In this document: positions 16,313 to 32,389 of the stretch, piece by piece
How the letters are laid out: every line of letters begins with the position of its first letter
How positions within the stretch are numbered: position 1 is the stretch's first letter
Origin: Flavobacteriaceae bacterium
Lineage (GTDB): Bacteria > Bacteroidota > Bacteroidia > Flavobacteriales > Flavobacteriaceae
DNA: 48,450 bases
Assembly (NCBI GenBank): GCA_024643425.1
Contig: JAHEMY010000006.1
Span: forward strand, 4,286 to 52,735
Reading direction: 5' to 3'
Made by a program: the position numbers and the translations under genes
The notes under the pieces: model-generated
Told to the model about the DNA's origin: nothing
The model's input: the letters and a program-made list of their open reading frames with translations, nothing else
The model's database searches: none

Positions 16313-19300
16313 CTATTTTTTTATCACTTTCTTTGTAATGGAGCCATTTTCAGCATCAATTTTAACAAAGTAAACTCCCTTTTTCAAGCTAGATAGGTCA
16401 ATAGAATAGCGATTATTTTCATTTACCACATATTCTGAGATACGTTTCCCAAGAATGTCATACACTTCAATGTTGTGAAGATTGGCATTTGGCGAATAGA
16501 TGGTTAACGAATTACTGGTTGGATTAGGAAACACCTTCACTGAATCTAGGTCATATTCACTGTTGCCGAGGGTTGTGATCTCGCTTTGAAAGATAAGCGT
16601 AAATCGGTTATAAAACGTACCGGGTTCGCTTTCAAAAGAATAATAAGAGGAATCGGTTAGTTCCAGTCGTACAATGGTGTTGGTAAAGTTATCTCTTAGA
16701 TACACATTGGCATTTGATAAATTAACACCTTCGATGTTTTCAATTGAAATTTTATATTCTAGTTTTTCGTCGATTAAGGTTGAATAGCCCAGTGGAATTT
16801 TAACGCCGCTTTCGTAGGTTCCTCGGGTTTGAATTCCTAATTCATGAGGTTGATTTTCCATACCGCTAAAGAAAGAAACAACGGTCGCTAAACGACGGCT
16901 GTCGTATCCAGGATCAAAATCGATGGTGGCTTCCTCTGAAAAAGCTACAAGTGTAGTCGATTGCATTTGATATTCGGCATTTGCAATTTTTAACCAAATA
17001 CGGTCTTTACCATCGGGACGTCTGAAGGTATTGTTGTTGTCGGTACGACGCATGTCATTATTAAACAAAGCGGTACCGGCAGCAGTTGCTTTAAATGCAA
17101 ATCCTTGTCCTGTAGAAATATACTCGTTCGGAGAGTTTCCACCACTTACAGCGGCAATTCCTCCGGAGTTATTGTACATGGAAATATCTTGCATTGAAAA
17201 ATTCATGGAACCGGCTCCGGGTAACGTCGCACTGGGCGGTGTGTTGTGTTCCCAGAAAAAGAGCTCGTCTACCATACTATTTTCAGCGATAAATGCTAAG
17301 GCTGAAATAGCTGAAGGGTAGGGGTTGGCCACCACATTAGGGCTGGAATTCTTATTACCGTTGTAGATTACATCGAAGGTGATGTCACCATTATTTAGTG
17401 TTCCTTCTTTGTAAGTATAGTTATAAGTTCCACCCGGTTGTCCATACCCGGCTTGTGGACGAACAATATAGCCTTCCCCGGGATTAATGGGAGTATTAAA
17501 TCCTTCGTCAATAATGATCCAGTTGTTGTAATTGTCGTCGGCAAAATTCTCTGCACCTGGCATTTGTGCTTCAACTTCTGGATTTGGCACAAATAACGAC
17601 GTGTCGTGGTACAGCACTAAGAATGGATCTACCCATACATCGTCACGAGTTTCAGCCGTCATAGGACTTCCCATCACCATAAAGTCACGAGAGGCTAGGT
17701 TGGGTGTAGTTAAATGTACATTGATGGTTCCATTTTTTGTAACAAAGGCATTGGGGTCTGTTTGGACGACGCTACCTTGGTGTAAAATATCTAGAGTCCC
17801 GTCCACTTGAATATCTCCATCGACATTTATAAACCCACCACTGGTCACGGTAAGCGTTCTGGAAGCATTTACCGTTAAGGAACAAGCCGTAATATCGCCG
17901 TGTGTGCCAGTATTATAATTTCCATTAATAATAACACTATTGTTTAATCCAGGTTGTCCGCTTGGACTCCAAGAACTGCCGTTCCACGTTTTCGTAGCTC
18001 CCGCACATCCGGGAATTTCTGTGATTGATAATTGTACGTTATCTAAGGCTAAATCACTCGCAAATCCATTACCGGTCGTACCAATAAATCGCAGTTTTAT
18101 GGTTTTTCCAACGTAAGTATCTAGATTGACATTTGTTGGAACCCAAGCATTATTATTCACTCCTGTCACAGAGAAAATCGTAACCCATATATTTTCAAAT
18201 TCGCTTATCTGCAATGCAATAATACCTGTATTGGCTCCCCAAGAGTGATAATCGAATGAAAAGTCAGCAGTTTGTGCATTAGTAAAATCAAAACAAGGGC
18301 TTTCCAATATTGCTGTTGCATTCACACCAATTTCACCGGGTGTGCCATTAGTAGATGCTTCGATATAAATGTATTCTGATCCTTCGCTCGCCCCAGAAGG
18401 TCCTGTATTTCCTGAAGGAGTAGCACCTGAGTATCGTATCCAGTCCCCATCGTCGGCCGATTCTTGTAACCAAAGGCCAATACTGCCTTCAAAGCCTTCA
18501 TTGTAATCATAAGTATTTATTGTATTTACACAATTTACTGGTGGTGGTGGTGGTGGTGGATCTCCAATGCGAATATTGTCTATCGCCATATCACTTGTGC
18601 TACCATTACCGGTGGTGGCATCAATACGTAATTTAATGGTTGATCCCGCATAGGGAGTTAGGTCGATAACTGCTGAATTCCAACTATTTCCCTTATTTCC
18701 ACTTTCGGACCATAAAGTTGTCCAAGTAGAACCTCCATTATTACTAGCGGTAAGAGAAAGCGTACCCATAGTTGCACCAAACATATGATAGTCGAAGCTA
18801 ATTTCAGTGGTCTCGTTGGTCGGGATTTCGAAGCATGGAGACCCCATAACCACTCTATTACTAAAGTTGTCAGGACCTAAGTCATCTGATTCAACAAAAG
18901 CGTATAGGGCTCCTTGACTGGGTATCGTAGGTCCAGTGTTCGCAGAAGGAGTAGCAAATCTAGTGCGTATCCAACTATTTCTGATGTTACATGTTACTTC
19001 TTTTTCCCATGATTTTGTTTCAAAATCCATAACATAGGGAAAACTGTTTATTGTAGTACGGCAATGTGGTGTGCTTACAAAAGTATCGTAACTACATTGC
19101 AGCACGTCAATAGGCTCAACATAATTAACATTGGGATACTCCCATAAGTCAAGCGACGGATTTCCTACGGGGTCGGTTGGTTTTTGAACGCGAACAAAGG
19201 AGGCCAATCCGCTATTACCGCTATTAATACATCGGTTATCCCCACCCACACGTTTGGCGCCTTGTAAGGCGGCCATCAGCTTGTCGGCAAGTGTTCCGGT

Positions 19301-19948
19301 AGCGTTGCGAAAGGATGTTTCCATATCATCAAGGATGTCTTGTCGGCCACCACCGCCGGTTGAGGTGTCGAGAATGTTTCCTTGGATGGCATAATACATG
19401 CCAGTGTTAGGGTCGATACCCGTAATATTTCCAGCCCAGTTACCATTGTTTGAACCGGTAAATCCTGCAGTCGTAATGTTGCCACCACCATCGATTCCAA
19501 CAATTCCATATTGACGTGTGGTATTGTTATTATTACAGTCATTGGCTTGCATATAAGCAATAATTTGTGCAGGCGTATCTCCCGCCAACATCCTAGTTCT
19601 TGCCCTGCCCTGATTACAAGACGTGTAAGCCGCTTGGGTGTGTATAGCACCAAGAAGGGTTCCACTTGGGCTAAATATAATATCATTTAAAAAATTGATA
19701 TTCCCCGGATAACAACTTGTCCCAGCCCCACCTATTTCTTGGGTATTTGGGTCGTAGGCTACGATAGAAAAGGTGTCTCCCTCATGGTCCCTGGAGGTGT
19801 CTCTATCTTCCCACGAGTCATCATCATTCTCGATGCTTTTCGATTCGGATTGTGTTTTGTTTGGGTAGATAATCGCAAAAACTGACAACAACATGATTGC
19901 TGGGATGATTTGCCTTAAATTCCTTTTATTTCGGGGGTTAACTTTCAT
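16313..19948 (-). CDS. T9SS-secreted carrier with DUF1028 and two MAM-like domains (unit B)
   Basis: A protein of 1211 residues. The hydrophobic N-terminus (residues 11-29) is probably a signal peptide. A DUF1028 domain follows at about 52-265 (FSIVAYDPNTQEIGGAGTSC, then GIVGIDGGGNITTAGFTG); this family resembles Ntn hydrolases, but its activity is unknown. Two MAM-like jelly-roll domains (about 295-462 and 472-640, with SPCFxx, FDYHMFG and DMAIDNI motifs) are separated by a run of seven prolines. A WNGSSWSPSGQPG segment leads to a large shared module (about 760-1130) and a type-A T9SS sorting domain from about 1135 (VKVFPNPTSNSLTI). Residues 768-1044 are encoded by DNA that looks identical to part of the unit A carrier. 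It is the last gene of unit B, 48 nt after the preceding gene. The domain make-up suggests a surface-anchored binding or hydrolytic protein; the substrate is unknown. Confidence 0.9.
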   Translation of the reverse strand: MKVNPRNKRNLRQIIPAIMLLSVFAIIYPNKTQSESKSIENDDDSWEDRDTSRDHEGDTFSIVAYDPNTQEIGGAGTSCYPGNINFLNDIIFSPSGTLLGAIHTQAAYTSCNQGRARTRMLAGDTPAQIIAYMQANDCNNNNTTRQYGIVGIDGGGNITTAGFTGSNNGNWAGNITGIDPNTGMYYAIQGNILDTSTGGGGRQDILDDMETSFRNATGTLADKLMAALQGAKRVGGDNRCINSGNSGLASFVRVQKPTDPVGNPSLDLWEYPNVNYVEPIDVLQCSYDTFVSTPHCRTTINSFPYVMDFETKSWEKEVTCNIRNSWIRTRFATPSANTGPTIPSQGALYAFVESDDLGPDNFSNRVVMGSPCFEIPTNETTEISFDYHMFGATMGTLSLTASNNGGSTWTTLWSESGNKGNSWNSAVIDLTPYAGSTIKLRIDATTGNGSTSDMAIDNIRIGDPPPPPPPVNCVNTINTYDYNEGFEGSIGLWLQESADDGDWIRYSGATPSGNTGPSGASEGSEYIYIEASTNGTPGEIGVNATAILESPCFDFTNAQTADFSFDYHSWGANTGIIALQISEFENIWVTIFSVTGVNNNAWVPTNVNLDTYVGKTIKLRFIGTTGNGFASDLALDNVQLSITEIPGCAGATKTWNGSSWSPSGQPGLNNSVIINGNYNTGTHGDITACSLTVNASRTLTVTSGGFINVDGDIQVDGTLDILHQGSVVQTDPNAFVTKNGTINVHLTTPNLASRDFMVMGSPMTAETRDDVWVDPFLVLYHDTSLFVPNPEVEAQMPGAENFADDNYNNWIIIDEGFNTPINPGEGYIVRPQAGYGQPGGTYNYTYKEGTLNNGDITFDVIYNGNKNSSPNVVANPYPSAISALAFIAENSMVDELFFWEHNTPPSATLPGAGSMNFSMQDISMYNNSGGIAAVSGGNSPNEYISTGQGFAFKATAAGTALFNNDMRRTDNNNTFRRPDGKDRIWLKIANAEYQMQSTTLVAFSEEATIDFDPGYDSRRLATVVSFFSGMENQPHELGIQTRGTYESGVKIPLGYSTLIDEKLEYKISIENIEGVNLSNANVYLRDNFTNTIVRLELTDSSYYSFESEPGTFYNRFTLIFQSEITTLGNSEYDLDSVKVFPNPTSNSLTIYSPNANLHNIEVYDILGKRISEYVVNENNRYSIDLSSLKKGVYFVKIDAENGSITKKVIKK
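16818..17647 (-). repeat. 830-bp identical stretch shared with 23893..24722
   Basis: Comparing the two carriers at a constant offset of 7075 bp, I find no difference between flanking mismatches at 16817 and 17648. Outside this block the genes quickly become only moderately similar. Both copies have the same orientation and reading frame. Confidence 0.88.
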
Positions 19949-19996
19949 GATAGTAAGTATAGATTGGGAATTGGGGGTGTTGTAATAAAGTTTGGT

Positions 19997-20848
19997 TTAA
20001 AGCTGTTGTAAAAGTGTAATAGTCAAATAGCCATCTTGTGCATTGTCAGTTAAACCGTTATTTCCATTATAAGGCCCTGAACAAATCCCAAAAAATGCAT
20101 ACCCAGTGGTAGCTCCTCCGCAAAAACTAGTTACATTGAGACTATTAGGGTCTACATTTTGATGGTCCCACAGCCTTGCTCGCACCTTTAAATTATAGGT
20201 TGTTCCTTCATAAAGTGTTACAAGGTGAATGAACGTGGTTTGGCGGCCCAAAGCTTGAAAGGCATTGCTGGGGGTTCTCTTTGTATTTGATGAAACTGTA
20301 TTTTCGGCAACTTTTGTACCATCTATTTCTAACATATAAGACCCGTGAACGGTTGCTTCGTAAGATGTGTTTAAATGGTTTGGTGCTGCAATATAGCCCG
20401 TAACATGCAATTCGTATACTCCAGTATAGGGAGCGATAAAGTCTTGGTCTAATCCCGGAATCGTGTAAGTGGTTGTTATATCGGCAGCTCTTACAATTTC
20501 TGTCTGTTCATACTGAGTAGTAAAACCAGCATTGAAAATCTTTTCCCATTGCATCCCATTCCAAAAATAAAAACCAGGGGACACACTATCTTCACCAATA
20601 CCAGAAGTTAAAGTGTTATAAACCCACAATCCTTCAACTGGAGATGTAATAGTAGACACATCATTTCTAGAAGACAATTCCACATTTGGGATCATAAGTC
20701 CTTTATCATCACTGTTAAGCTGAACAATTGCGCCATTTTTAATTGCTAAGCTTCCTGACGAATCTTCACCAATTACAACCTGAGCAGAGGCGTTCATAGA
20801 AACAATTAAAATGATTGCTAAAAACTGAATTATATAGTATTTTTTCAT
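19997..20848 (-). CDS. secreted fibre-like protein, unit B, gene 3
   Basis: A protein of 283 residues. The signal peptide ends at about residue 22 (NASAQ). The N-terminal module is VVIGEDSSGSLAIKNGAIVQ, then GLMIPNVELSS, VEGLWVYNT and SPGFYFWNGMQWEKIF. Next comes a linker (QYEQTEIVRAAD) and a beta-rich domain with DFIAPYTGVYELHVTGY, close in pattern to C1q/TNF-like domains (F.AP..G.Y). The C-terminus ends DAQDGYLTITLLQQL, like the other unit B proteins. It has two cysteines, both in the segment FCGGATTGYAFFGIC, possibly a disulphide. There is no sorting domain. It sits 26 nt after the previous gene and 48 nt before the carrier. Confidence 0.85.
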   Translation of the reverse strand: MKKYYIIQFLAIILIVSMNASAQVVIGEDSSGSLAIKNGAIVQLNSDDKGLMIPNVELSSRNDVSTITSPVEGLWVYNTLTSGIGEDSVSPGFYFWNGMQWEKIFNAGFTTQYEQTEIVRAADITTTYTIPGLDQDFIAPYTGVYELHVTGYIAAPNHLNTSYEATVHGSYMLEIDGTKVAENTVSSNTKRTPSNAFQALGRQTTFIHLVTLYEGTTYNLKVRARLWDHQNVDPNSLNVTSFCGGATTGYAFFGICSGPYNGNNGLTDNAQDGYLTITLLQQL

Positions 20849-20874
20849 GATGCTGAGATTAGATCATTGGTTTT

Positions 20875-22221
20875 TTAAAATTGTTTAATAAGGCTTATAG
20901 TCATTCTTCCGCGTTGCGCATCATTGATACCACTACCAGAGTACCCGCTTGTGTCTCTTCCAAAAGATCCAGTGCCTGTATTGTTTGCAAGCCATTCTCT
21001 TCCTCGAACGGCAAATCTGTAGATGGTTCCGGCCTCTAATTCAATGTTATAAATAATGGTTGCGCTTTGTGCTAGGTTGTTCACTGTTGTGCTCCCGAGG
21101 CGTTTGGACGAAGTGGTAATATATGCTTCCTTTATGGTTGTAGAAATATCTACAGGAGGCGATGGAGGCCCAGCAGTATTGTTTACGGAAATGTTATCTA
21201 TGGCCATATCAGATCTTGAACCACCCCCGATAACGCCATTAAATCTAAGTTGAACACTTCCTCCTGCATAACCCGATAAATCGATACTTTCCGAATACCA
21301 AGAATTACCTTGATTTCCCGACTGGGACCATAACGAGGACCAAGACGCACCGTCATCATCGCTAATTTCCAGGTCAAGAGTTCCCATACTACTACCATAC
21401 ATATGATAGTCGAAATTAATGGATGCCTCTGTCTCTCCTGAGAGGTCAAAGCATGGAGAATTTAAAATTGATTGCTCGTTACTATTGTTACTTGCTTCTA
21501 AATATAAATACCAGCTTCCATCAGAACCTGTACTAGGTCCTGTACTACTGGTAGGAGTTCCTCCGCTATCCCGGATCCAGTCGTTATCATCTCCTGTATC
21601 CTGCGTCCATAATCCGAATGAACTTTCAAAACTTTCACTGTACGGGAAGGTGGAAATTCCACCGGAACAACCTACTGAACCTCCGCCTGCAGACCTTGAA
21701 CCCATGGCAAGACTTATAGAACCTTGGGCTGCACCATCTCCTGATGTGCTTATCAAGTCGCCCGCCGAATAATACCCTTCAACTCTAATTTGATAGGTTC
21801 CACTAAATGGTACCGTAATTTCGCCAGTATCCAGTCCTGGAAGAGTAACATATGTAGTGTTGCTTGTACTTGCGGTTACGGCTGCGGTTTGTTCATATTC
21901 TAAGGTGTAGCCTTGCGTAAAAAAACGACGCCAGGTACTCCCGTCAAAATAGTAAAACCCGGGTGATACCGCGTTACCAGAACTTCCTCCGGTTGCGGTA
22001 TTGTAAACCAATAAACCAGCAGAAGGTGCGGGTGTTATGGTGGTTACGTCATCTGTTCCTGTCAACGCAATCTTAGTCATCAAAAACCCTTTGTCTGTAG
22101 CTGTAATATCAAATACAGATGAAGCTTCTGGGGTAGTTGTGTTCACCCCAACTTGAGCATTTGAGATTAAGGTATTAATCACAATACAGATGCTTGCTAA
22201 AAATATTCGTTTTGAAAGCAT
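20875..22221 (-). CDS. secreted fibre-like protein with inserted MAM domain, unit B, gene 2
   Basis: A protein of 448 residues from the ATG at 22221 (MLSKRIFLAS); the in-frame TTG further upstream adds 11 residues before a normal signal peptide and is unlikely. The N-terminal module (VGVNTTTPEASSVFDIT to VSPGFYYFDGSTWRRF) and the C1q-like domain (ITVPFSGTYQIRVEGYYSAG) match the preceding gene. At about residues 188-350 a whole MAM-like domain (CSGGISTFPYSESFE to SDMAIDNISVNN) is inserted in a loop. The paralogue simply reads through there, and its sequence resumes at TTSSKRLGSTTVNNL. The MAM domain is the same type as the two in the carrier downstream. It ends RGRMTISLIKQF. Confidence 0.87.
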   Translation of the reverse strand: MLSKRIFLASICIVINTLISNAQVGVNTTTPEASSVFDITATDKGFLMTKIALTGTDDVTTITPAPSAGLLVYNTATGGSSGNAVSPGFYYFDGSTWRRFFTQGYTLEYEQTAAVTASTSNTTYVTLPGLDTGEITVPFSGTYQIRVEGYYSAGDLISTSGDGAAQGSISLAMGSRSAGGGSVGCSGGISTFPYSESFESSFGLWTQDTGDDNDWIRDSGGTPTSSTGPSTGSDGSWYLYLEASNNSNEQSILNSPCFDLSGETEASINFDYHMYGSSMGTLDLEISDDDGASWSSLWSQSGNQGNSWYSESIDLSGYAGGSVQLRFNGVIGGGSRSDMAIDNISVNNTAGPPSPPVDISTTIKEAYITTSSKRLGSTTVNNLAQSATIIYNIELEAGTIYRFAVRGREWLANNTGTGSFGRDTSGYSGSGINDAQRGRMTISLIKQF

Positions 22222-22295
22222 AAAAAGTTTTTTTGTTAGTGTTTTTAATATCAATTGATCTGAACTTGGATTCTTCCGTCAGAGCAATACAGTAC

Positions 22296-23120
22296 TTATT
22301 GTTGTTTTAATAATGTGATAGACAAGGATCCTCTGTGCGCATCATTGACTCCACTGGCACCTGGATAGCCACTTGTGTTTTTACCAAATGTTCCAAGATC
22401 AACATTATTTCGAGACCACTCTCTTCCTGATACATAAAATCGGTAAGTATCTAACACGTCAAGGTCAACGGTATATATAATGGTGGTATTTTGGGGTAAA
22501 TTGTTCATGGTGGTACTTCCAATTCTTTTGGAAGTAGAGGTTACATATTGCTCTTTCAAGTTTACTGGGGCACCTGAGTTGGTAACCATGAACAAACTTA
22601 CTGAGGCTTGTCCAACCCCCTCTGATGTTGTGCTAGACAGATTGCCACAGGCATAGGTGGTTTCTACTTTAATGTGATAAGTCCCTGAATACGGCACATT
22701 AATAGTTCCGGTATCAAGTCCTGAAATTTGAGTATAAGTAGAACTAGAACTGTTTGCTACAGTTTCTGAACTTTGATCATATTTTATTCCATAACCTCTA
22801 CTGTATAATCGTTCCCACAAGGCTCCGTTAAAAAAATAGAACCCCGGGGTTACCTGAACGGGAAGCGCGCCAGCTGTTACTTTATTGTATACTAAAAGTC
22901 CAGTAGTCGCATTCGGTGTAATGGTGGTAGTATCGTCTGTTCCGGTGAGTTCAACTCGTGGGATTAAAAAACCACCATTGTTGGAATAAATGTCCAAAAG
23001 GGCTCCAGAAGCGGGATTGTCAGTATTAATACCCACTTGAGTAAAGCCATTTGCCGCTATTAAAAGATGAAAACAAAGGGCTGCGACCTTTATTCTACGT
23101 GAAGTAGAGCTTAGTTTCAT
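22296..23120 (-). CDS. secreted fibre-like protein, unit B, gene 1
   Basis: A protein of 274 residues from the ATG at 23120 (MKLSSTSRRIKVAALCF), which begins a normal signal peptide. An in-frame GTG at 23198 is rejected because it lies in the conserved upstream element. The N-terminal module is VGINTDNPASGALLDIYSN, then GFLIPRVELTGTDDTT, GLLVYN and VTPGFYFFNGALWERLY. The C1q-like domain carries INVPYSGTYHIKVETTYACG and ends RGSLSITLLKQQ. The mature protein has one cysteine (TYACG). It is a close paralogue of the next gene without the MAM insertion, so it shows the uninterrupted form of that fold. Confidence 0.86.
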   Translation of the reverse strand: MKLSSTSRRIKVAALCFHLLIAANGFTQVGINTDNPASGALLDIYSNNGGFLIPRVELTGTDDTTTITPNATTGLLVYNKVTAGALPVQVTPGFYFFNGALWERLYSRGYGIKYDQSSETVANSSSSTYTQISGLDTGTINVPYSGTYHIKVETTYACGNLSSTTSEGVGQASVSLFMVTNSGAPVNLKEQYVTSTSKRIGSTTMNNLPQNTTIIYTVDLDVLDTYRFYVSGREWSRNNVDLGTFGKNTSGYPGASGVNDAHRGSLSITLLKQQ

Positions 23121-23185
23121 AAATAGGTTTTTTAAATTTGGGTATACAATAATAATCAAAAAATTCCTTGAAACACAATTAAAAA

Positions 23186-23240
23186 CGATGAAATGCACTA
23201 TAAATCAATAAAATAAGATAAATCCTACAAAATATATTAT
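23186..23240 (-). promoter_or_regulatory. conserved upstream element of unit B (shared with unit A)
   Basis: The minus strand carries a TATATTTTGTAG-type -7 region, an AT-rich stretch, and then ATAGTGCATTTCATCG. The GTGCATTTCATCG core (23186-23198) ends 66 nt before the first start codon. The same order of parts occurs before unit A at nearly the same distance. Confidence 0.6.
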
Positions 23241-23333
23241 AAATAACAGATTGTTGAAAGAGTTATCTCCTAAATTCAAATGTTCAATTGGAATGCTGCC
23301 AAACGTAAATAGGAGATTTGGAAAGAAATTAAA

Positions 23334-23358
23334 AAAGCAGTGCTTTTAACACTGCTTT
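23334..23358 (-). terminator. terminator of unit A
   Basis: Stem AAAGCAGTG / CACTGCTTT with a 7-nt loop. The minus strand runs on into T-rich sequence. It is 33 nt past the carrier stop and separates units A and B. Confidence 0.8.
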
Positions 23359-23390
23359 CAATAATAAAACACCCAAAATATGTCTTATTT

Positions 23391-26300
23391 CTATTTTTTG
23401 ATCACTTTCTTGGTAACCGAACCACTTTCGGTGTCAATTTTGACAAAGTATACACCGGTTTCTAAACTTGAAAGTTCAATAGTATACCCATGATGTTCCC
23501 CTTGAATATTCTCAGCAAGACGTTTTCCAAGGATGTCATACACTTCAATGTTACGAAGATTAGCATTTGGCGAATAGACAGTTAACGAATTACTGGTTGG
23601 ATTAGGAAACACCATTACCGAATCCAGTTCATTTTCGTCGGGACCAAGGGTAACCTCACTTTGGAAAATAAGTGTGAATCGGTTATAAAACGTACCGGGT
23701 TCGCTTTCGAAAGCGTAATACGAGGAATCCATTTGTTCTAGTAAAACAATGGTATTGGTAAAATTATCTCTTAAAAACACATTGGCATTTGATAAATTAA
23801 CACCTTCGATGTTTTCAATTGAAATTTTATATTCTAGTTTTTCGTCGATCAAGGTTGAATACCCCAGCGGAATTTTAACACCACTTTCGTAAGTTCCTCG
23901 GGTTTGAATTCCTAATTCATGAGGTTGATTTTCCATACCGCTAAAGAAAGAAACAACGGTCGCTAAACGACGGCTGTCGTATCCAGGATCAAAATCGATG
24001 GTGGCTTCCTCTGAAAAAGCTACAAGTGTAGTCGATTGCATTTGATATTCGGCATTTGCAATTTTTAACCAAATACGGTCTTTACCATCGGGACGTCTGA
24101 AGGTATTGTTGTTGTCGGTACGACGCATGTCATTATTAAACAAAGCGGTACCGGCAGCAGTTGCTTTAAATGCAAATCCTTGTCCTGTAGAAATATACTC
24201 GTTCGGAGAGTTTCCACCACTTACAGCGGCAATTCCTCCGGAGTTATTGTACATGGAAATATCTTGCATTGAAAAATTCATGGAACCGGCTCCGGGTAAC
24301 GTCGCACTGGGCGGTGTGTTGTGTTCCCAGAAAAAGAGCTCGTCTACCATACTATTTTCAGCGATAAATGCTAAGGCTGAAATAGCTGAAGGGTAGGGGT
24401 TGGCCACCACATTAGGGCTGGAATTCTTATTACCGTTGTAGATTACATCGAAGGTGATGTCACCATTATTTAGTGTTCCTTCTTTGTAAGTATAGTTATA
24501 AGTTCCACCCGGTTGTCCATACCCGGCTTGTGGACGAACAATATAGCCTTCCCCGGGATTAATGGGAGTATTAAATCCTTCGTCAATAATGATCCAGTTG
24601 TTGTAATTGTCGTCGGCAAAATTCTCTGCACCTGGCATTTGTGCTTCAACTTCTGGATTTGGCACAAATAACGACGTGTCGTGGTACAGCACTAAGAATG
24701 GATCTACCCATACATCGTCACGGGTTTCAGCCGTCATCGGACTTCCCATCACCATAAAGTCACGAGAGGCTAAGTCTGGAGTAGTTAGATTTACATTGAT
24801 CATAGCACCTCCAATTTTATTTACAGTAGCATTAGGGTCAACTTGTACCACACTTCCTTGGTGTGCTACAATTAAGCTCCCGGCAACATTAATATCGCCA
24901 TTGGTTTTAAGGTAGTCACCAGCATTTATGGTTAAAGATGCTGAATTGTTAATAGTACATGTACAGGCATCGATACTTGTATTAGATACGGTGGTGTATG
25001 TACCATCAATAATGGCATTCGATCCAGGGCCAGGAACACCATCACTCCAACTGCCGCCGGAATAAGTGGTTGGGGCGGCGGCTATGGTTACAGTAGAAAC
25101 ACAAGAAGCCTTATTTCCATAGTCGTCTTCTCCTTCCAAGGTAATATTAAAAGTGCCACCAACATCGGCACAGGTGAACGTAGTTTGTCCGGTCAAGGTC
25201 CAATCTACAATTCCGAAGTCGTCGGTAGAGCCATTGTCCAGATCTGTTTCATCGATCGTTGCAGTACCTGTATTTGGATCCAAATAGATGGTCGGACTCT
25301 GGCAAATAATAGTAGGTGGGGTGTTGTCGTAATTTGGATCACGCATAATGAAAAGGCCTCCATCACCACCACTATTGTCATTTCCAAATCCAGTGGTAAA
25401 AATATTTCCACTTTCAAAAAAGGGATAAACATTCCAAGTACCATGAAAACTCGCGGTATTAGAACTAGGATAAGTATCCATAAAAGCAACTTCTGTCATG
25501 CTTGGCGTAGAATCATACAAGCCATTAACTTTCAATACGCGAACACCTGCCGCATAATTAGCTAAATAAAAACGGTTACCCTTTACATAACCATTGTGGT
25601 CTATAGCTGGTGTGCTTCCGTAATATGTATAAAATAAGGAAGGACTATCTAAGTCTTCAAAGTCAAATACTAATGTTCTGGTATTGAAACCATGGTTTTC
25701 TTCATCCACTTCATCTCCAAGAATAAAAAATCGGCGATCTTCAGTGAACCAACCTTGATGGGTGTAATTTACATTGGGATAATTTACTGTATTAATATTA
25801 ACAGGATTGGCTTTATTCGTTACGTCAACAATCACAATTTCGTTTTCATTGGCGCCAATCATTATTTCTTTACCTATATAATCTGGGTCGGGGCCATCGT
25901 AAGTTAGTACTTGTGCATCATGAAAGTAATCACTTCCACCGTATTCACCAACGATTATAGGATTTGTAGGGTTCTGTATATTAACAAATATCGGACCGCC
26001 ATTAGAATTACTACTCCTATTAACCCCAACAATATAAGCAAATCCAGATTCTTCATTAATAACAATATTGTGGGCTCTGCCATCATTCGATCCACCGTCA
26101 CCAATAAATAAATGTGCATCTTCCAATAATATTCTACTGCTAGATCCAGTTCCACTAGGAGTTAATCCTCTAAGTCTAGTTAAATCAAATATTTGAAGAC
26201 CATCCGCGGAAACTTCACTGACTACAAAGGCATGATTACTATATACCTTTACGTCACGCCATAGATTTGAACCACCAGAATGTGAGTCCATACGCCCCAA

Positions 26301-26591
26301 ATAGACTGGATTAATTGGGTCCGTAATGTCTACAAACGCGGTTCCATTATTTAACGCAACTATGGCATATTCATGCCCGTCAAAGTCAGAATCTGTCCAG
26401 CCCCAAGAATCTTGACATTCATAAGCATCAAAATCTGAACTAGGTATATATGATTGTAAAGTAAGTCCCGAACAAGGATAGTCATTATTTGGGCCTCCAC
26501 CTGGAATTACTATAGTTCCTCCAGAACAAGGTGTTTGTGCAATCGCGATCGAAGCACTTAACACAGCTAGAATAAATGTAACTTTTTTCAT
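23391..26591 (-). CDS. T9SS-secreted carrier with choice-of-anchor B / LVIVD domain (unit A)
   Basis: A protein of 1066 residues with a signal peptide at 1-18 (IAIAQ). Residues about 25-425 form a choice-of-anchor B type beta-propeller of LVIVD-like repeats (EYAIVALNNGTAFVDITDP, then NEIVIVDVTNKANPVNI). One HYR/Ig-like domain follows at about 430-505. A GSWSDGVPGPGSNAIIDG segment leads to the large module shared with the unit B carrier, and a T9SS sorting domain begins at about 990 (VMVFPNPTSNSLTVYS). Residues 624-900 come from DNA that looks identical to the unit B carrier. It is the last gene of unit A, 64 nt after the last small gene. It is probably the surface-anchored partner of the six small proteins upstream; that role is inference. 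Confidence 0.9.
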   Translation of the reverse strand: MKKVTFILAVLSASIAIAQTPCSGGTIVIPGGGPNNDYPCSGLTLQSYIPSSDFDAYECQDSWGWTDSDFDGHEYAIVALNNGTAFVDITDPINPVYLGRMDSHSGGSNLWRDVKVYSNHAFVVSEVSADGLQIFDLTRLRGLTPSGTGSSSRILLEDAHLFIGDGGSNDGRAHNIVINEESGFAYIVGVNRSSNSNGGPIFVNIQNPTNPIIVGEYGGSDYFHDAQVLTYDGPDPDYIGKEIMIGANENEIVIVDVTNKANPVNINTVNYPNVNYTHQGWFTEDRRFFILGDEVDEENHGFNTRTLVFDFEDLDSPSLFYTYYGSTPAIDHNGYVKGNRFYLANYAAGVRVLKVNGLYDSTPSMTEVAFMDTYPSSNTASFHGTWNVYPFFESGNIFTTGFGNDNSGGDGGLFIMRDPNYDNTPPTIICQSPTIYLDPNTGTATIDETDLDNGSTDDFGIVDWTLTGQTTFTCADVGGTFNITLEGEDDYGNKASCVSTVTIAAAPTTYSGGSWSDGVPGPGSNAIIDGTYTTVSNTSIDACTCTINNSASLTINAGDYLKTNGDINVAGSLIVAHQGSVVQVDPNATVNKIGGAMINVNLTTPDLASRDFMVMGSPMTAETRDDVWVDPFLVLYHDTSLFVPNPEVEAQMPGAENFADDNYNNWIIIDEGFNTPINPGEGYIVRPQAGYGQPGGTYNYTYKEGTLNNGDITFDVIYNGNKNSSPNVVANPYPSAISALAFIAENSMVDELFFWEHNTPPSATLPGAGSMNFSMQDISMYNNSGGIAAVSGGNSPNEYISTGQGFAFKATAAGTALFNNDMRRTDNNNTFRRPDGKDRIWLKIANAEYQMQSTTLVAFSEEATIDFDPGYDSRRLATVVSFFSGMENQPHELGIQTRGTYESGVKIPLGYSTLIDEKLEYKISIENIEGVNLSNANVFLRDNFTNTIVLLEQMDSSYYAFESEPGTFYNRFTLIFQSEVTLGPDENELDSVMVFPNPTSNSLTVYSPNANLRNIEVYDILGKRLAENIQGEHHGYTIELSSLETGVYFVKIDTESGSVTKKVIKK
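23893..24722 (-). repeat. 830-bp identical stretch shared with 16818..17647
   Basis: Second copy of the identical block, flanked by mismatches at 23892 and 24723. It encodes residues of the shared module such as DFMVMGSPMTAETRDDVW and the region downstream of it. Confidence 0.88.
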
Positions 26592-26655: not shown

Positions 26656-27495
26656 TTATTCAACTAAATAAGTAAATTCAATATCGCAGGGCAATCCGAT
26701 GCCCACATAGGACATTCCTGTTCCGGAATCTCCATTATTAACAAAATTATCGGATACATATACATCAATTTCAAAACGATAAGGGAATGCAACGCCGGCT
26801 GTTAAGTCAACATACACAATTAAAGAAGTATCATGTCTAAATTGATCAAAATAGGTTCCGCCATTAATATCGTTATTATGAACAGAGTATGCATGTGTAT
26901 AAATATAATAAACATCTGGGCCCAGAGTGATTCTAAAGAATCCTTCCTGTGTTGCCATTGAGGTAGGAAAACCTGGAGCTAGTTCAACTTCACCGGCACC
27001 AAAATTAAAATTTGCTTTAATTCGATAGGTCCCTGTATATTTTGGAGTAAAGGAAGAACTTGCGCCTAATCCATTTACATCAACAAAATCGTCTTGCCAT
27101 GCTGTACTACCTGTGGCAATTCTTTGGCCTATAGGTGATTGTTCAACAATTTCAGAATCTTCTTTGATGTACTGCGTCGTCCATTGAGATCCGTCCCAAG
27201 CATAAATGCCTGGGTATACATCATTACTTCCGTTAGTGGTGGTTGCGGTGTTATATACAACAGTTCCCGCCACTAAATTTCCACCATCCGGATTTAGAAC
27301 GGGAGCCTCTATTAAAGTAGAAGTCAATGCAAATCGTGGGTAAATGATCCCTGCGGTACTATTTTGCATATCGACCAATCCTTTAGGACTAGTTGTAGGA
27401 GTCCCGTTGCTCATCGACACCTGTGCAAAAGAAGAAATGGCAACCAGGAAAAAAATTCCTGAAAATATATTTTTATATATGTAAAGTTCTTTCAT
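26656..27495 (-). CDS. secreted fibre-like protein, unit A, type C' (gene 6)
   Basis: A protein of 279 residues with a signal peptide to about residue 25 (SSFAQ). The N-terminal module is atypical at the start (VSMSNGTPTTSPKGLVDMQ) but then standard: GTVVYNTATTTNGSNDVYPG, YAWDGSQWTTQYIKED. In the C1q-like domain it shares YTGTYRIKANFNFGAGE, MATQEGFFRI, YTHAYSVHN and FRHDTSLIVY with gene 3, so the two are the C members of the duplicated set. The mature protein has one cysteine, in LPCDIEFTYLVE at the C-terminus. It is 13 nt after gene 5. Confidence 0.86.
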   Translation of the reverse strand: MKELYIYKNIFSGIFFLVAISSFAQVSMSNGTPTTSPKGLVDMQNSTAGIIYPRFALTSTLIEAPVLNPDGGNLVAGTVVYNTATTTNGSNDVYPGIYAWDGSQWTTQYIKEDSEIVEQSPIGQRIATGSTAWQDDFVDVNGLGASSSFTPKYTGTYRIKANFNFGAGEVELAPGFPTSMATQEGFFRITLGPDVYYIYTHAYSVHNNDINGGTYFDQFRHDTSLIVYVDLTAGVAFPYRFEIDVYVSDNFVNNGDSGTGMSYVGIGLPCDIEFTYLVE

Positions 27496-27508
27496 GATTT
27501 GGAAGCTT

Positions 27509-28858
27509 TTATTCTCCTATATAGGTAAATTCTATTTGACTGTTTATTTCTTTTCCAACATACCCACGACCCTCTGTTGATGGAGGAGTTGGTGGGCCTG
27601 AAAGCTCGCTGATGACTACATTGTCAACAGATGCACCATTAGCTTTTCCAACATTTATATACTCAAAATTTAAAGTATGCAGTACTCCAGCGACTACAGA
27701 AATAGTTGCGCTGTATGAAGTGTTAGCGTCCAAATTATCAAGCCATACTAAATCTCCTCCAACTTGCGATACTCCATCATGAAGATAAACCCTAAAAGTG
27801 TCATCAGAGTTAGGGGACCTTTCGTCAAATTCGAAATCAAAACTTATGTTTACCGAATTAACTGTCGGTAAGAAACTTATTTCAGCGGTAGCGTTTTGGT
27901 TACAGCTGCTACCATTTCCATTAATAAAAAGGGCATCACCTAAACAATCTGTGCATGTGCCAGCAAAGATGATCCAGCCATCAGTTGACTGATCACCACC
28001 AGTACCACCACCACACCCTATAGAGTTGTTGGTCTGTGTTATAGTATATCCGTTAAAATCTTCATTAATTAAATCAATCAATGTGGGGTCTGTTCCACCA
28101 GATGTGGTTGATCCATTTCCGAGATACCCAGGAGCATCATAAGCATCAAAGGTCAAGGAAAATGGATAGGTAGTCCCGGCAATGAGGTTGACATACGCTG
28201 TATCGTAAGACTCTTTCCAAATCCCTTCAAAATGGGTTCCTCCACTAAGGTAACTAGAATAAGCAGAAAATGCACTTGTCTCAAACGTATAAGGATTTCC
28301 GTTAAATAAAAATTCGAATTGACCTGAAGCCATACTCACAAAGGTGGTGCCATTGGTTTCAGTTTTACCTCCGGCAAAATTTGATTTCACCTCAATGCGA
28401 TAGAGTCCTGAATACTTTGCAGTAAATTCATTATTATCGGCTATTCCTAATCCAGGGATATCTTGTTTTCCTGCATTTGCTTCTGTTCTAAGAACGGAGG
28501 TTTGGTTATACAATTCAGACTGTCTTTTTTTATAATGAACCACCCACTGGCTTCCATCCCAAGTGTAGATACCGGGATAAACATTAGTGTCTGGAATGGT
28601 GCCATTATCTGTTGTATTGGTATTGTATACCACGGTACCCGGAACTATGGCACCCCCTTGAGGGTTTACAACCGGGTCCGGGTCATCTGTCGCTAATAAG
28701 GCAACATTGGGATATACCACTCCCATGGATCCACCACTGTTAAAATCCAAAATTCCTTTGGGGTCGGCGGTGTTAATACCCACTTGTGCCATAATATTAC
28801 TAGCCACAAAGAGGATTATCGCCAAATTCAAACTTATTGAGAAAGTATTTTTTTTCAT
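27509..28858 (-). CDS. secreted fibre-like protein with inserted domain, unit A, type B' (gene 5)
   Basis: A protein of 449 residues from the ATG at 28858 (MKKNTFSISLNLAI); an in-frame GTG three codons upstream is less likely. It is the B' partner of gene 2: both have MGVVYPNV, VVNPQGG, HYKKRQ.ELY.QT and GIWKESY or NIWKESY. A domain of about 160 residues (about 258-421; INEDFNGYTITQTNN to ASVDNVVISEL), jelly-roll-like with four cysteines before NATAEISF, is inserted just before the last strand, which resumes at GRGYVGKEINSQIEFTYIGE. This protein alone lacks the C-terminal cysteine of its five relatives in the unit (NSQIEF instead of PCxxEF). Confidence 0.87.
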   Translation of the reverse strand: MKKNTFSISLNLAIILFVASNIMAQVGINTADPKGILDFNSGGSMGVVYPNVALLATDDPDPVVNPQGGAIVPGTVVYNTNTTDNGTIPDTNVYPGIYTWDGSQWVVHYKKRQSELYNQTSVLRTEANAGKQDIPGLGIADNNEFTAKYSGLYRIEVKSNFAGGKTETNGTTFVSMASGQFEFLFNGNPYTFETSAFSAYSSYLSGGTHFEGIWKESYDTAYVNLIAGTTYPFSLTFDAYDAPGYLGNGSTTSGGTDPTLIDLINEDFNGYTITQTNNSIGCGGGTGGDQSTDGWIIFAGTCTDCLGDALFINGNGSSCNQNATAEISFLPTVNSVNISFDFEFDERSPNSDDTFRVYLHDGVSQVGGDLVWLDNLDANTSYSATISVVAGVLHTLNFEYINVGKANGASVDNVVISELSGPPTPPSTEGRGYVGKEINSQIEFTYIGE

Positions 28859-28885
28859 CGTGATCACTGTAATTCAAAAGATTTT

Positions 28886-29725
28886 TTAGTCTAAATAAAC
28901 AAATTCTACGGTGCAAGGGATATCGCCTCCTAACCATCCCCTTCCAGCAAGAGTATTTCCGTTATCAATAATGCCGGGGGAACTGGTTTGATCGAAACTT
29001 AAACTGAAAGTATAATTAGTTCCAGCAACAAGTTCTTTATACATGACGGTCGTAGTTTGTTCCCAGATATCATAATATTGAGTTCCAGAACCATGTCTTG
29101 CCGCCCAGCTGTAGGCTGGAATTAATTCATCCGGGTCCGAATCAAATGCAAATTTAAAAATCCCTTTTTGAACAGTAACACCAGTTTGTCCGCTAACTAG
29201 GGCAATTTGTCCACTACCCCAATTCACGCTTATTTCAATTTTGTAGGTACCCGTATAGGTAGGGGTAAAAACACTATTTGTAAGACCTGGTATATTTTGG
29301 TAGGATCCGGTTGTAATTGTTCTTAAAGCTCCGGAGGAATTATCTTGTTCGAATATTTGAGCATTCTTTTTAGGAAATTCATTGATCCAATCCACACCAT
29401 CCCACATATAGATACCGGGATAAACACTAAATTCTCCATTACTTGAGGTATTTGTGTTGTACACAACCGTACCGATTGGAATCGGGTCTGCTACGTTATC
29501 TGGATTTACAACAGGAGCTGCAACGTCTGTTCTGGTTAGAGCTACCCTTGGTAACACAAGACCATAATTGTTTGTGCCAGAAAGATCTTTCTCAGCATCA
29601 CTATTTAAATCTAAAACACCGTCCGGAGCTATTGTGCCAATCCCAACTTGACCCAGGGATACAAGGGAAAACATTAGAAAAGCTAAGAAAAGGATATTTC
29701 TTAGTTTAGGGTAAAAACTATTCAT
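28886..29725 (-). CDS. secreted fibre-like protein, unit A, type A' (gene 4)
   Basis: A protein of 279 residues with a signal peptide to about residue 25 (SLVSLGQ). It has VGIGTIAPDGVLDLNSD, then GLVLPRVALTRTD, VVNPDN, PIGTVVYNTNT and YPGIYMWDGVDWINEFPKK. The last block is near-identical to gene 1, which marks this as the A member of the second set. The C1q-like domain has FTPTYTGTYKIEISVNWGSG and ends IPCTVEFVYLD with the only cysteine. A 139-nt gap and a TACATTTG box precede it, so the second A'-B'-C' block may have its own promoter. Confidence 0.86.
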   Translation of the reverse strand: MNSFYPKLRNILFLAFLMFSLVSLGQVGIGTIAPDGVLDLNSDAEKDLSGTNNYGLVLPRVALTRTDVAAPVVNPDNVADPIPIGTVVYNTNTSSNGEFSVYPGIYMWDGVDWINEFPKKNAQIFEQDNSSGALRTITTGSYQNIPGLTNSVFTPTYTGTYKIEISVNWGSGQIALVSGQTGVTVQKGIFKFAFDSDPDELIPAYSWAARHGSGTQYYDIWEQTTTVMYKELVAGTNYTFSLSFDQTSSPGIIDNGNTLAGRGWLGGDIPCTVEFVYLD

Positions 29726-29770
29726 AATTGGGGGCCTTTAATTTATTTTAGGTTAAGCTAGTTCTTCCTA

Positions 29771-29778
29771 CAAATGTA
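29771..29778 (-). promoter_or_regulatory. candidate internal -7 box between the two unit A blocks
   Basis: TACATTTG on the minus strand matches TAnnTTTG, 46 nt before the gene 4 ATG, in the only long gap inside unit A. No convincing -33 TTTG is visible, so the call rests on the -7 box and the gap. Confidence 0.38.
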
Positions 29779-29864
29779 ATAAAATTATTGAATTATTAAT
29801 TTTTTTTTATAAAACCCGTTGATTAACAATGAATTGCTCGTGCAAATTAATTCTTTTCTAAAAT

Positions 29865-30710
29865 TTAGTCCCCTTCTAAATAAGTGAATTCTACAGTGCA
29901 GGGGAGTTCAATTCCTACATGAGTGTTGGCATTTGGATCCATATTGTCATAATCGTTGTTATTTGATACTTGTACATCTATTTGTAAACGAAAAGAATAG
30001 GTCTGTCCTGCAATCAAATCTTCGTATAAAATAAGGGAAGAATCGTGTCTAAAGGTATCATAAATCGTTCCTGGAGAACTTCCTATATGTTCATTAAAAA
30101 CAGAGTAGGAATGAGTATAAATGTTATAATCGGCTCCGTCAAATCGAAAACGGAACCATCCTTCTTGTGTGGCCATACGAATATAATCGTGATTTCCACC
30201 ACCACCAGTAGGAGGAGGATTTATTTCACCCGCACCAAAGTTAAAATTGGCAATAATACGGTAGGTGCCTGAATATTTTGGAGTAAAAGTCGATCCGCTA
30301 CCTAGGCCAGGTACATCGCGCCAACCTCCAGAATATGGTACTCGAAAATCCAATGGGGTTTGAGTAAAAATATCGACGTCTTCTTTGATAAACTGCGTGG
30401 TCCACTGTGAGCCGTCCCAAGCATAGATTCCCGGGTACACGTCATAAGCTCCATTTGTAGTTAAACTAGTGTTGTAAACCACGGTTCCGGGTTCAAGGGG
30501 ATTTCCGGTGGGATTAATTACCGGGTTTGGATCGTTGGTTGCAATCAAGGGTACCCTAGGGTAAACTAATCCTGTGGTGGTATTTAATTGCAAATCTAAA
30601 AGGCCTTTGGGATTATTGGTTCCAACACCTACTTGCGCTAAACCCAGAAAGGATATCATCAAAGCCTTTATTGTTAGCATCGTATATTTTATTTTTTGCT
30701 TCATAGTCAT
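29865..30710 (-). CDS. secreted fibre-like protein, unit A, type C (gene 3)
   Basis: A protein of 281 residues (a second ATG two codons in is equally possible). The signal peptide runs to about residue 25 (SFLGLAQ). The N-terminal module is VGVGTNNPKGLLDLQ to PGIYAWDGSQWTTQFIKED. The C1q-like domain contains FTPKYSGTYRIIANFNFGAG, a Pro/Gly-rich loop (PPPTGGGGN), MATQEGWFRF and FRHDSSLILYEDL. It ends LPCTVEFTYLEGD with the single mature cysteine. It is the C member of the first block, 23 nt after gene 2. Confidence 0.86.
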   Translation of the reverse strand: MTMKQKIKYTMLTIKALMISFLGLAQVGVGTNNPKGLLDLQLNTTTGLVYPRVPLIATNDPNPVINPTGNPLEPGTVVYNTSLTTNGAYDVYPGIYAWDGSQWTTQFIKEDVDIFTQTPLDFRVPYSGGWRDVPGLGSGSTFTPKYSGTYRIIANFNFGAGEINPPPTGGGGNHDYIRMATQEGWFRFRFDGADYNIYTHSYSVFNEHIGSSPGTIYDTFRHDSSLILYEDLIAGQTYSFRLQIDVQVSNNNDYDNMDPNANTHVGIELPCTVEFTYLEGD

Positions 30711-30733
30711 TGTTTTAATTAAAAACCCAACCG

Positions 30734-31549
30734 TTATTCATCCATATAGGTAAATTCTACGGTACACGGAATGTCTGTTCCAATGTACCCCAATCCATCT
30801 CCGGAGTTTCCATCGTTCACAAACCCGGGAGCAGGAGATTGATCAAATTCTAGTGAAAATGAATAGGTTGTATTCGCTGTTAAATTAATATACAGCGTAG
30901 TGTACGATTCCTTCCAGATATTGGTGTAATGGGTTCCGCTATTCACATAGCTGTTATAAATGGAATAGGCATGCGTAATAAAGGTTTTCGGAACTCCGTT
31001 AAATGTAAATCGGAAGGCACCCTCTTGCGCAGCGACATTCACATCTACTCCGTCGACCATTTTACCTCCACCATAATTACCTTTTACAATGATGCGGTAC
31101 AAACCAGAATATTTGGGCGTAAACGTTCTATTGTCGGCCACCCCTAGATTTGGGATATCCTGCCAATCTCCGGGAAAGTCGGAATCGGTTCTTAACTCGG
31201 TAGTTTGTTCGTACAATTCGGCTTGACGTTTTTTATAATGAATGGTCCATTTCGAACCATCCCAAACATAAATTCCGGGATGCACATCGGTAACATTTCC
31301 AGTGGAGGTTGTATTGATGTTATACACGACAGTACCCACCGCCAAGGATCCTCCTTGCGGATTTACCACTGGAAGGGGATTGTCCGTTGCAGTTAATGAT
31401 ACATTTGGATATACAACTCCCATAGTAGAAGAATTAATGTCTAAAAGTCCCGCGGGGGCGCTCGTATTAATCCCTACTTGTGCCTTTGCCATGCTCATCG
31501 TTAAAAGCAGGGCAAATAAAATGTTGTATGTGTTTTTATTGATGTTCAT
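30734..31549 (-). CDS. secreted fibre-like protein, unit A, type B (gene 2)
   Basis: A protein of 271 residues with a signal peptide to about residue 23 (SMAKAQ). The N-terminal module is VGINTSAPAGLLDINSS, then MGVVYPNVSLTATD and PGIYVWDGSKWTIHYKKRQ. The C1q-like domain (FTPKYSGLYRIIVKGNYGGG, NIWKESYTTLYINL) runs without interruption to IPCTVEFTYMDE. It is the uninterrupted B-type relative of gene 5, so it shows where gene 5 acquired its extra domain. It has one mature cysteine and lies 15 nt after gene 1. Confidence 0.86.
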   Translation of the reverse strand: MNINKNTYNILFALLLTMSMAKAQVGINTSAPAGLLDINSSTMGVVYPNVSLTATDNPLPVVNPQGGSLAVGTVVYNINTTSTGNVTDVHPGIYVWDGSKWTIHYKKRQAELYEQTTELRTDSDFPGDWQDIPNLGVADNRTFTPKYSGLYRIIVKGNYGGGKMVDGVDVNVAAQEGAFRFTFNGVPKTFITHAYSIYNSYVNSGTHYTNIWKESYTTLYINLTANTTYSFSLEFDQSPAPGFVNDGNSGDGLGYIGTDIPCTVEFTYMDE

Positions 31550-31564
31550 GACTTTTTGATTTTA

Positions 31565-32389
31565 TTAATCCACATAAACGAATTCAACCGAACAAGGAAT
31601 ATCATAACCTATATAGCCTTTCCCGGTGCCACTATTTCCATTAGAAACAAAGCCTGGGGAGGCTAATTGGTCAAATTGAAGGGTAAAGTTATAAGAGGTT
31701 CCTTTTGTTAAGGTTTGATACATGACCGTGGTGGCTTGTTCCCAAATTAAATAATATTGGGTAGTGCCATAGGTGGAATGAGAGCTAATGGGTACCAAAT
31801 AATCCACTCCGTTGAAGGTAAGTTTAAAAATACCTTTTTGAGATAGCGGGTTGGTCTTCCCACCTGCCAGATTATCGGCATATCCGCCACCATAATTCAC
31901 ACTCAGTTCAATTTTATATCGACCTGTGTATTTTGGAGTGAATGATTGGTTGAGTAATCCAGGAATGGTAACATAACCGCCGGTTGATTGCGTCCGAAAT
32001 TCTGACGACATGTCCTGCTTAAAGATTTCGGCATCTTTTTTTGGGAATTCGTTGATCCAGTCGACTCCATTCCACATATAAATTCCCGGACTTACATCGT
32101 TTAAACCTGTGTATGTGGTGTTGGTGTTATAAACAACGGTGCCAATCGGGAGCGGATCACCTGGGTTATCTGGATTGATAACTGGGGCCGGTACAGTAGC
32201 ATCGGTTAATGCAACGCGTGGCAAAACTAGGCCGTAATATTGATTGACGGGTAAATTTTGGCTGTTCAAATCCAACGCTCCCTCCGGAGTTGAGGTCCCA
32301 ATCCCTACTTGTCCGAAGCTAAACGCAGAAAATAACATTACACCCAAAAACACAAAGAGTTGGATTGTAGTTAAGTATTTTTTTTTCAT
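31565..32389 (-). CDS. secreted fibre-like protein, unit A, type A (gene 1)
   Basis: A protein of 274 residues, first in unit A, with a signal peptide to about residue 26 (SAFSFGQ). The N-terminal module is VGIGTSTPEGALDLNSQ, then GLVLPRVALTDA, PIGTVVYNTNT and GIYMWNGVDWINEFPKK. The C1q-like domain has FTPKYTGRYKIELSVNYGGG and IWEQATTVMYQTL, and ends IPCSVEFVYVD with the only cysteine. Its closest relative in the window is gene 4. The conserved upstream element sits 68 nt before its start. A subunit role in a secreted assembly is inferred from the fold pattern and the repeated gene order. Confidence 0.86.
   Translation of the reverse strand: MKKKYLTTIQLFVFLGVMLFSAFSFGQVGIGTSTPEGALDLNSQNLPVNQYYGLVLPRVALTDATVPAPVINPDNPGDPLPIGTVVYNTNTTYTGLNDVSPGIYMWNGVDWINEFPKKDAEIFKQDMSSEFRTQSTGGYVTIPGLLNQSFTPKYTGRYKIELSVNYGGGYADNLAGGKTNPLSQKGIFKLTFNGVDYLVPISSHSTYGTTQYYLIWEQATTVMYQTLTKGTSYNFTLQFDQLASPGFVSNGNSGTGKGYIGYDIPCSVEFVYVD

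Follow-up and report, generated by a model that had tools for sequence, protein, structure and literature searches.

The window, meaning the whole 48,450-nucleotide stretch of DNA analyzed here, lies within contig C191 of a 2.74-Mb draft assembly in 201 contigs (G000 among the sampled genomes, which are labeled by G-numbers). On its minus strand it encodes two large genes, A and B, which are predicted cargo of the type IX secretion system (T9SS) and share a long exact repeat. The features are:

16313..19948, minus strand: gene A, open reading frame for a predicted T9SS cargo of 1211 aa with DUF1028, two MAM/choice-of-anchor J domains, a RemA/RemZ-like tail, and a type A sorting domain
17651..18004, minus strand: linker of the A tail, aa 649-766, 57% identity to B, groups elsewhere than B
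16818..17647, minus strand: probable conversion tract, A copy, aa 768-1044, 830/830 identical to 23893-24722, 0/276 codons differ
16316..16817, minus strand: A post-tract tail and sorting domain, aa 1045-1211, 83% identical to B
16316..16534, minus strand: A type A sorting domain, aa 1139-1211 (TIGR04183)
19997-20848, 20875-22254, and 22296-23198, minus strand: open reading frames of three small genes between the repeats
23391..26591, minus strand: gene B, open reading frame for a predicted T9SS cargo of 1066 aa with choice-of-anchor B, a RemA/RemZ-like tail, and a type A sorting domain
23893..24722, minus strand: probable conversion tract, B copy, 830/830 identical to 16818-17647, 0/276 codons differ
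23394..23612, minus strand: B type A sorting domain, aa 994-1066 (TIGR04183)

Domain searches of gene A returned DUF1028 (Pfam E 1e-24), the two MAM/choice-of-anchor J domains (MAM E 9e-30), Por_Secre_tail (E 5e-17), and TIGR04183, and those of gene B returned choice-of-anchor B (TIGR04312 E 5e-135) and TIGR04183 (E 1e-16). Both proteins end in a type A sorting domain (TIGR04183 and PF18962), and as judged from these domains A and B are T9SS type A cargo proteins. The initial annotation had described them as carrier genes; they are cargo genes whose shared part is a C-terminal secretion tail. Whole-gene duplication was considered as an origin and rejected, because a forced alignment of the A cargo part with that of B gave only 26% identity.

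At 19997-23198 and 26656-32389 the minus strand encodes small proteins that look secreted and share a VGINTTxPxGxLD-like motif at the N-terminus. Relatives of the 19997-23198 genes adjoin A-type genes in G265, G086, G062, and G012, relatives of the small genes at 26656 and 31565 adjoin B-type genes in more than 12 genomes, and the motif-bearing proteins look like fixed partners of A- and B-type cargo genes. The protein of 20875-22254 has a MAM/choice-of-anchor J domain inserted at residues ~205-359, while its neighbor at 22296-23198 has the same frame without the domain. Elsewhere in the window, a 3322-aa open reading frame (170-10138) contained near-identical 300-base repeats at a spacing of 1275 (99% and 97%) plus other repeats, which suggests recent repeat expansion or homogenization in a giant protein. 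A motif scan of the window found nothing.

The tract belongs to a C-terminal tail of about 560-570 aa common to A and B. A profile of 88 such tails matched F. johnsoniae RemZ (E 7e-89) and RemA (E 4e-78) over its whole length, with profile positions 14-570 aligning to RemZ 568-1112 and 15-570 to RemA 893-1434. In a single-sequence search the A tail alone matched RemA with E 4e-50. At the sequence level, then, the A/B tail is homologous to the C-terminal region of RemA and of RemZ, itself a type A T9SS substrate and RemA homologue (PMC10994853). In the solved complexes, the sorting domain is the one part that is well resolved. The likeness covers the whole tail, whereas the cargo parts differ: the lectin/adhesin N-terminal part of RemA is absent from A (DUF1028 and MAM) and from B (choice-of-anchor B), and only the tail is common. 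No Pfam or NCBIfam model covers the region before the sorting domain. An AlphaFold2 model of the tail was confident (mean pLDDT 91) and consisted mostly of strands, and in Foldseek searches of the PDB the confident matches were confined to sorting domains and individual Ig-like or FN3-like units, none of them tail-wide. Matches to the tail at E ≤ 1e-20 occurred in 175/397 sampled Flavobacteriaceae genomes, with up to 12 in one genome, on cargoes that included M36 peptidases, subtilases, galactose-binding repeat, F5/8 type C, DUF1028, and choice-of-anchor B proteins. A search for related loci by exact peptide patterns recovered only three because it needs those patterns to be exact.

By direct comparison, positions 16818-17647 and 23893-24722 were equal at 830/830 bases with an offset of 7075, which agrees with the match at every base and the same-strand arrangement 7 kb apart reported at the outset. 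The source genome holds these two copies of the tract and, on contig C131, a third and far more distant one (66% over 315 bases). With A and B both encoded on the minus strand, the block falls in the C-terminal half of each protein (in A, aa 768-1044 of 1211) rather than at the N-terminus, where it had been placed. Aligned by codon, A and B gave a block of 276 consecutive identical codons with differing codons on both sides, and ungapped identity dropped beyond both tract edges. On the 5' side in the gene sense, the nearest 60 aligned codons had 73% amino-acid and 67% third-position identity, and all aligned sequence upstream of the tract (122 codons) had 56% and 48%, respectively. On the 3' side, the nearest 60 codons had 93% amino-acid and 78% third-position identity, and the last 107 codons had 77% and 63%; in 20-codon windows nucleotide identity was 83-97% adjoining the tract and then 63-90%. 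Both flanks had been called clearly diverged, which holds for the 5' coding side, while on the 3' coding side divergence beside the tract is only moderate.

We shuffled the A/B codon differences along the tail module in 20,000 trials, and the longest identical run among these permutations was 89 codons, against the 276 observed. Amino-acid conservation on its own might produce long runs, and the test was therefore rerun on only those codons at which the two genes do not differ in amino acid; the A/B pair remained significant (p 0.0005, the floor of 2,000 permutations). Applied more widely, this synonymous-site test returned significant runs (p<0.001) in 7/161 within-genome pairs and 0/321 cross-genome pairs, the latter comprising 21 sister orthologues and 300 random pairs with none significant in either set. 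With 0 differences in 830 sites, divergence since the event is at most about 0.36% (95% bound, 3/830). The genus of the source genome had no other member among the sampled relatives.

One rival explanation is that the copies are held identical by purifying selection on the nucleotides themselves, acting through codon constraint, RNA structure, or an overlapping gene. We found no point in its support. No antisense open reading frame of at least 120 aa overlaps the tract, and no cross-genome pair, sister orthologues included, had comparable runs at p<0.001. Across the tract, protein identity to the closest other copies does not exceed about 68%, and since the same region diverges freely in other genomes, constraint, which the initial annotation had named as a potential refuter, is excluded; we regard this explanation as extremely improbable.

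A single recent duplication or fusion, in which A copied the B tail once and the middle happened to stay identical, would account for the grouping of the A post-tract region and sorting domain with B-type genes (below). Had A copied the tail recently, no differences would be expected at the 3' end either, yet third-position identity over the last 107 codons is just the 63% given above. The 3' end is thus too diverged for one recent copy, an older copy followed by later conversion fits better, and the single-copy scenario is quite unlikely.

An assembly artifact, in which two similar but non-identical copies were collapsed to one consensus that was then used twice, is a somewhat less remote alternative, though still an unlikely one. 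The assembly is a 201-contig draft in which small differences could have been collapsed, and contigs of other drafts break inside the tail module (G128, G137, and G426). In G012, which shares its genus with G265, an A-type gene and an M36-type gene are each cut off by a contig end within the tail, and the two ends share a 77-base overlap; assemblers struggle here, and these ends probably mark the assembler meeting a repeat. Against collapse, both copies of the A/B tract lie in one contig with unique sequence flanking each, comparable exact tracts occur inside multi-megabase contigs (G227 and G296), and collapse would need copies already far more alike than their flanks. The order of the copies is, by reasoning, not in doubt, since a single linear path, left-repeat-middle-repeat-right, accounts for all the pieces. 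Draft contigs start or end in or near the tail in G128, G137, G423, G426, G428, G086, and G012, which suggests that more identical tail repeats exist than the assemblies show.

We therefore favor recent ectopic gene conversion between neighboring, co-oriented T9SS cargo genes with a RemA/RemZ-type tail as the source of the 830-bp identity, with a probability of roughly 87%. Recent conversion had been proposed for this block initially, and the proposal is borne out by the internal tract, the diverged flanks, the permutation and synonymous-site tests, and the differently bounded tracts found elsewhere. Homologous pairing of the tails, assumed here to involve RecA-type recombination, would allow the sequence of one copy to replace that of the other from aa 768 to aa 1044 of A, and the upstream linker and downstream sorting domain of A and B would stay distinct afterwards. 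The identity pattern is what we observe; the conversion event is what we infer from it.

Exact tracts with boundaries different from those of A and B were present in four other genera. They measured 738 bp between neighboring A-type and M36-type genes in G086, 659 bp between paralogues on a 3.04-Mb contig in G227, 281 bp in G296 between two genes on opposite strands and 1.5 Mb from each other, and 266 bp between paralogues in G359. The A-type gene was a frequent partner, paired with B in G000 and with the M36-type gene in G086, and 93% identical to the M36-type gene in G265. Neither a 37-codon run in G265 (p 0.14) nor a 17-codon run in a G179 pair (p 0.04) was counted as a tract. A choice-of-anchor B gene at G179 C12:1018900-1022341 (L085) has its tail over several frames, reflecting a frameshift or sequencing errors; it was left out because the coding sequence is broken across frames and the long repeats it seemed to contain came from overlapping extraction windows. 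Six co-oriented large T9SS cargo genes with differing cargoes and similar tails lie in a row at G301 C4:190325-219899 (L086 and L087).

The two ends of the A tail grouped with different relatives. The A linker was closest to a subtilase-type gene of G101 (69% identity) and only 57% identical to B, and fell inside a 17-row clade of other cargo types (subtilase-type and others) with no B-type gene (SH-aLRT 97), while the B linker grouped with its orthologue in G232 (SH-aLRT 99). The A post-tract tail and sorting domain belonged to an 8-row clade whose seven other members were all B-type, B among them (SH-aLRT 97). This pattern suggests that A is a mosaic, in which an older B-to-A exchange would have supplied the post-tract tail and sorting domain before the recent tract arose. 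Because its tail end groups with B-type genes, B may be the likelier donor; the direction is suggestive only, since support for A with the B-type clade was 92 once long rows were left out and an AU test did not reject a position of A outside that clade (p 0.09).

Other Flavobacteriaceae show the same process in tails of this kind, and some genomes' tails thereby become alike whatever their cargo. On the tract-region tree, tails of different cargoes clustered by genome in G301 (8 copies), G086 (8 rows), G227 (4), G101, G220, G265, and G296. In the congeneric G086 and G301, two orthologous cargoes were 62-63% identical, but their tracts were only 44-46% identical to each other and 86-87% identical to those of other cargoes of their own genome. 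The galactose-binding-repeat orthologues of the same two genomes showed the reverse (47% for the cargo, 86% for the tract), and that family mostly formed its own cross-genome clade. Tails also followed orthology in G097/G307, G141/G335, and G255/G408. Label changes on the tract tree numbered 46 for 28 genome states and 36 for 13 cargo states, both with many extra. Homogenization is not universal, and neither genome nor cargo explains the whole tree. One tentative and rather doubtful idea is that ongoing conversion keeps the RemA/RemZ-type tails of a genome alike because the tail must fit that genome's own surface partner (translocon, shuttle, or anchor). If true, each lineage would evolve its own tail type open to any cargo, a coevolving plug-in tail rather than a product of neutral homogenization.

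A search of the available literature for flavobacterial cases that combine gene conversion and type IX secretion returned nothing on point. The nearest documented case is in P. gingivalis, where the T9SS cargo genes hagA, rgpA, and kgp contain identical stretches within and between genes on which automated assembly fails, and adhesin modules are unlinked to the catalytic part and occur in different combinations between strains (PMC5266723). Spontaneous variants of that species lost kgp and intervening genes, probably by homologous recombination at tandem hagA-kgp (PMC9328147). There the shared part is cleaved-adhesin/DUF2436 plus the sorting domain, in few genes of one species, whereas here it is a RemA/RemZ-type tail on many unrelated Flavobacteriaceae cargoes, and A and B keep diverged sorting domains. 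Tail conversion between A and B works like the P. gingivalis case, but the module is another one and is carried by many cargoes. Concerted evolution of bacterial multicopy genes, with conversion among the copies of one genome, is also described for rRNA operons and PE_PGRS genes (PMC8022953, PMC1762029); the difference is that here only the tail module is homogenized and the attached cargoes are unrelated.

By analogy, a deletion of the intervening unit through the direct repeats is plausible, in which case the three small genes at 19997..23198 would go, and a crossover within the tract would swap whole N-terminal cargoes on a common tail. For the family, the analysis identifies a widespread, unmodeled tail on many unrelated secreted proteins, which acts as a repeat that breaks draft assemblies and can lead tail-based trees and annotations to group genes by genome rather than by function. 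This tail recombines repeatedly within genomes while the cargoes stay distinct, giving secreted proteins a ready route onto working secretion tails.
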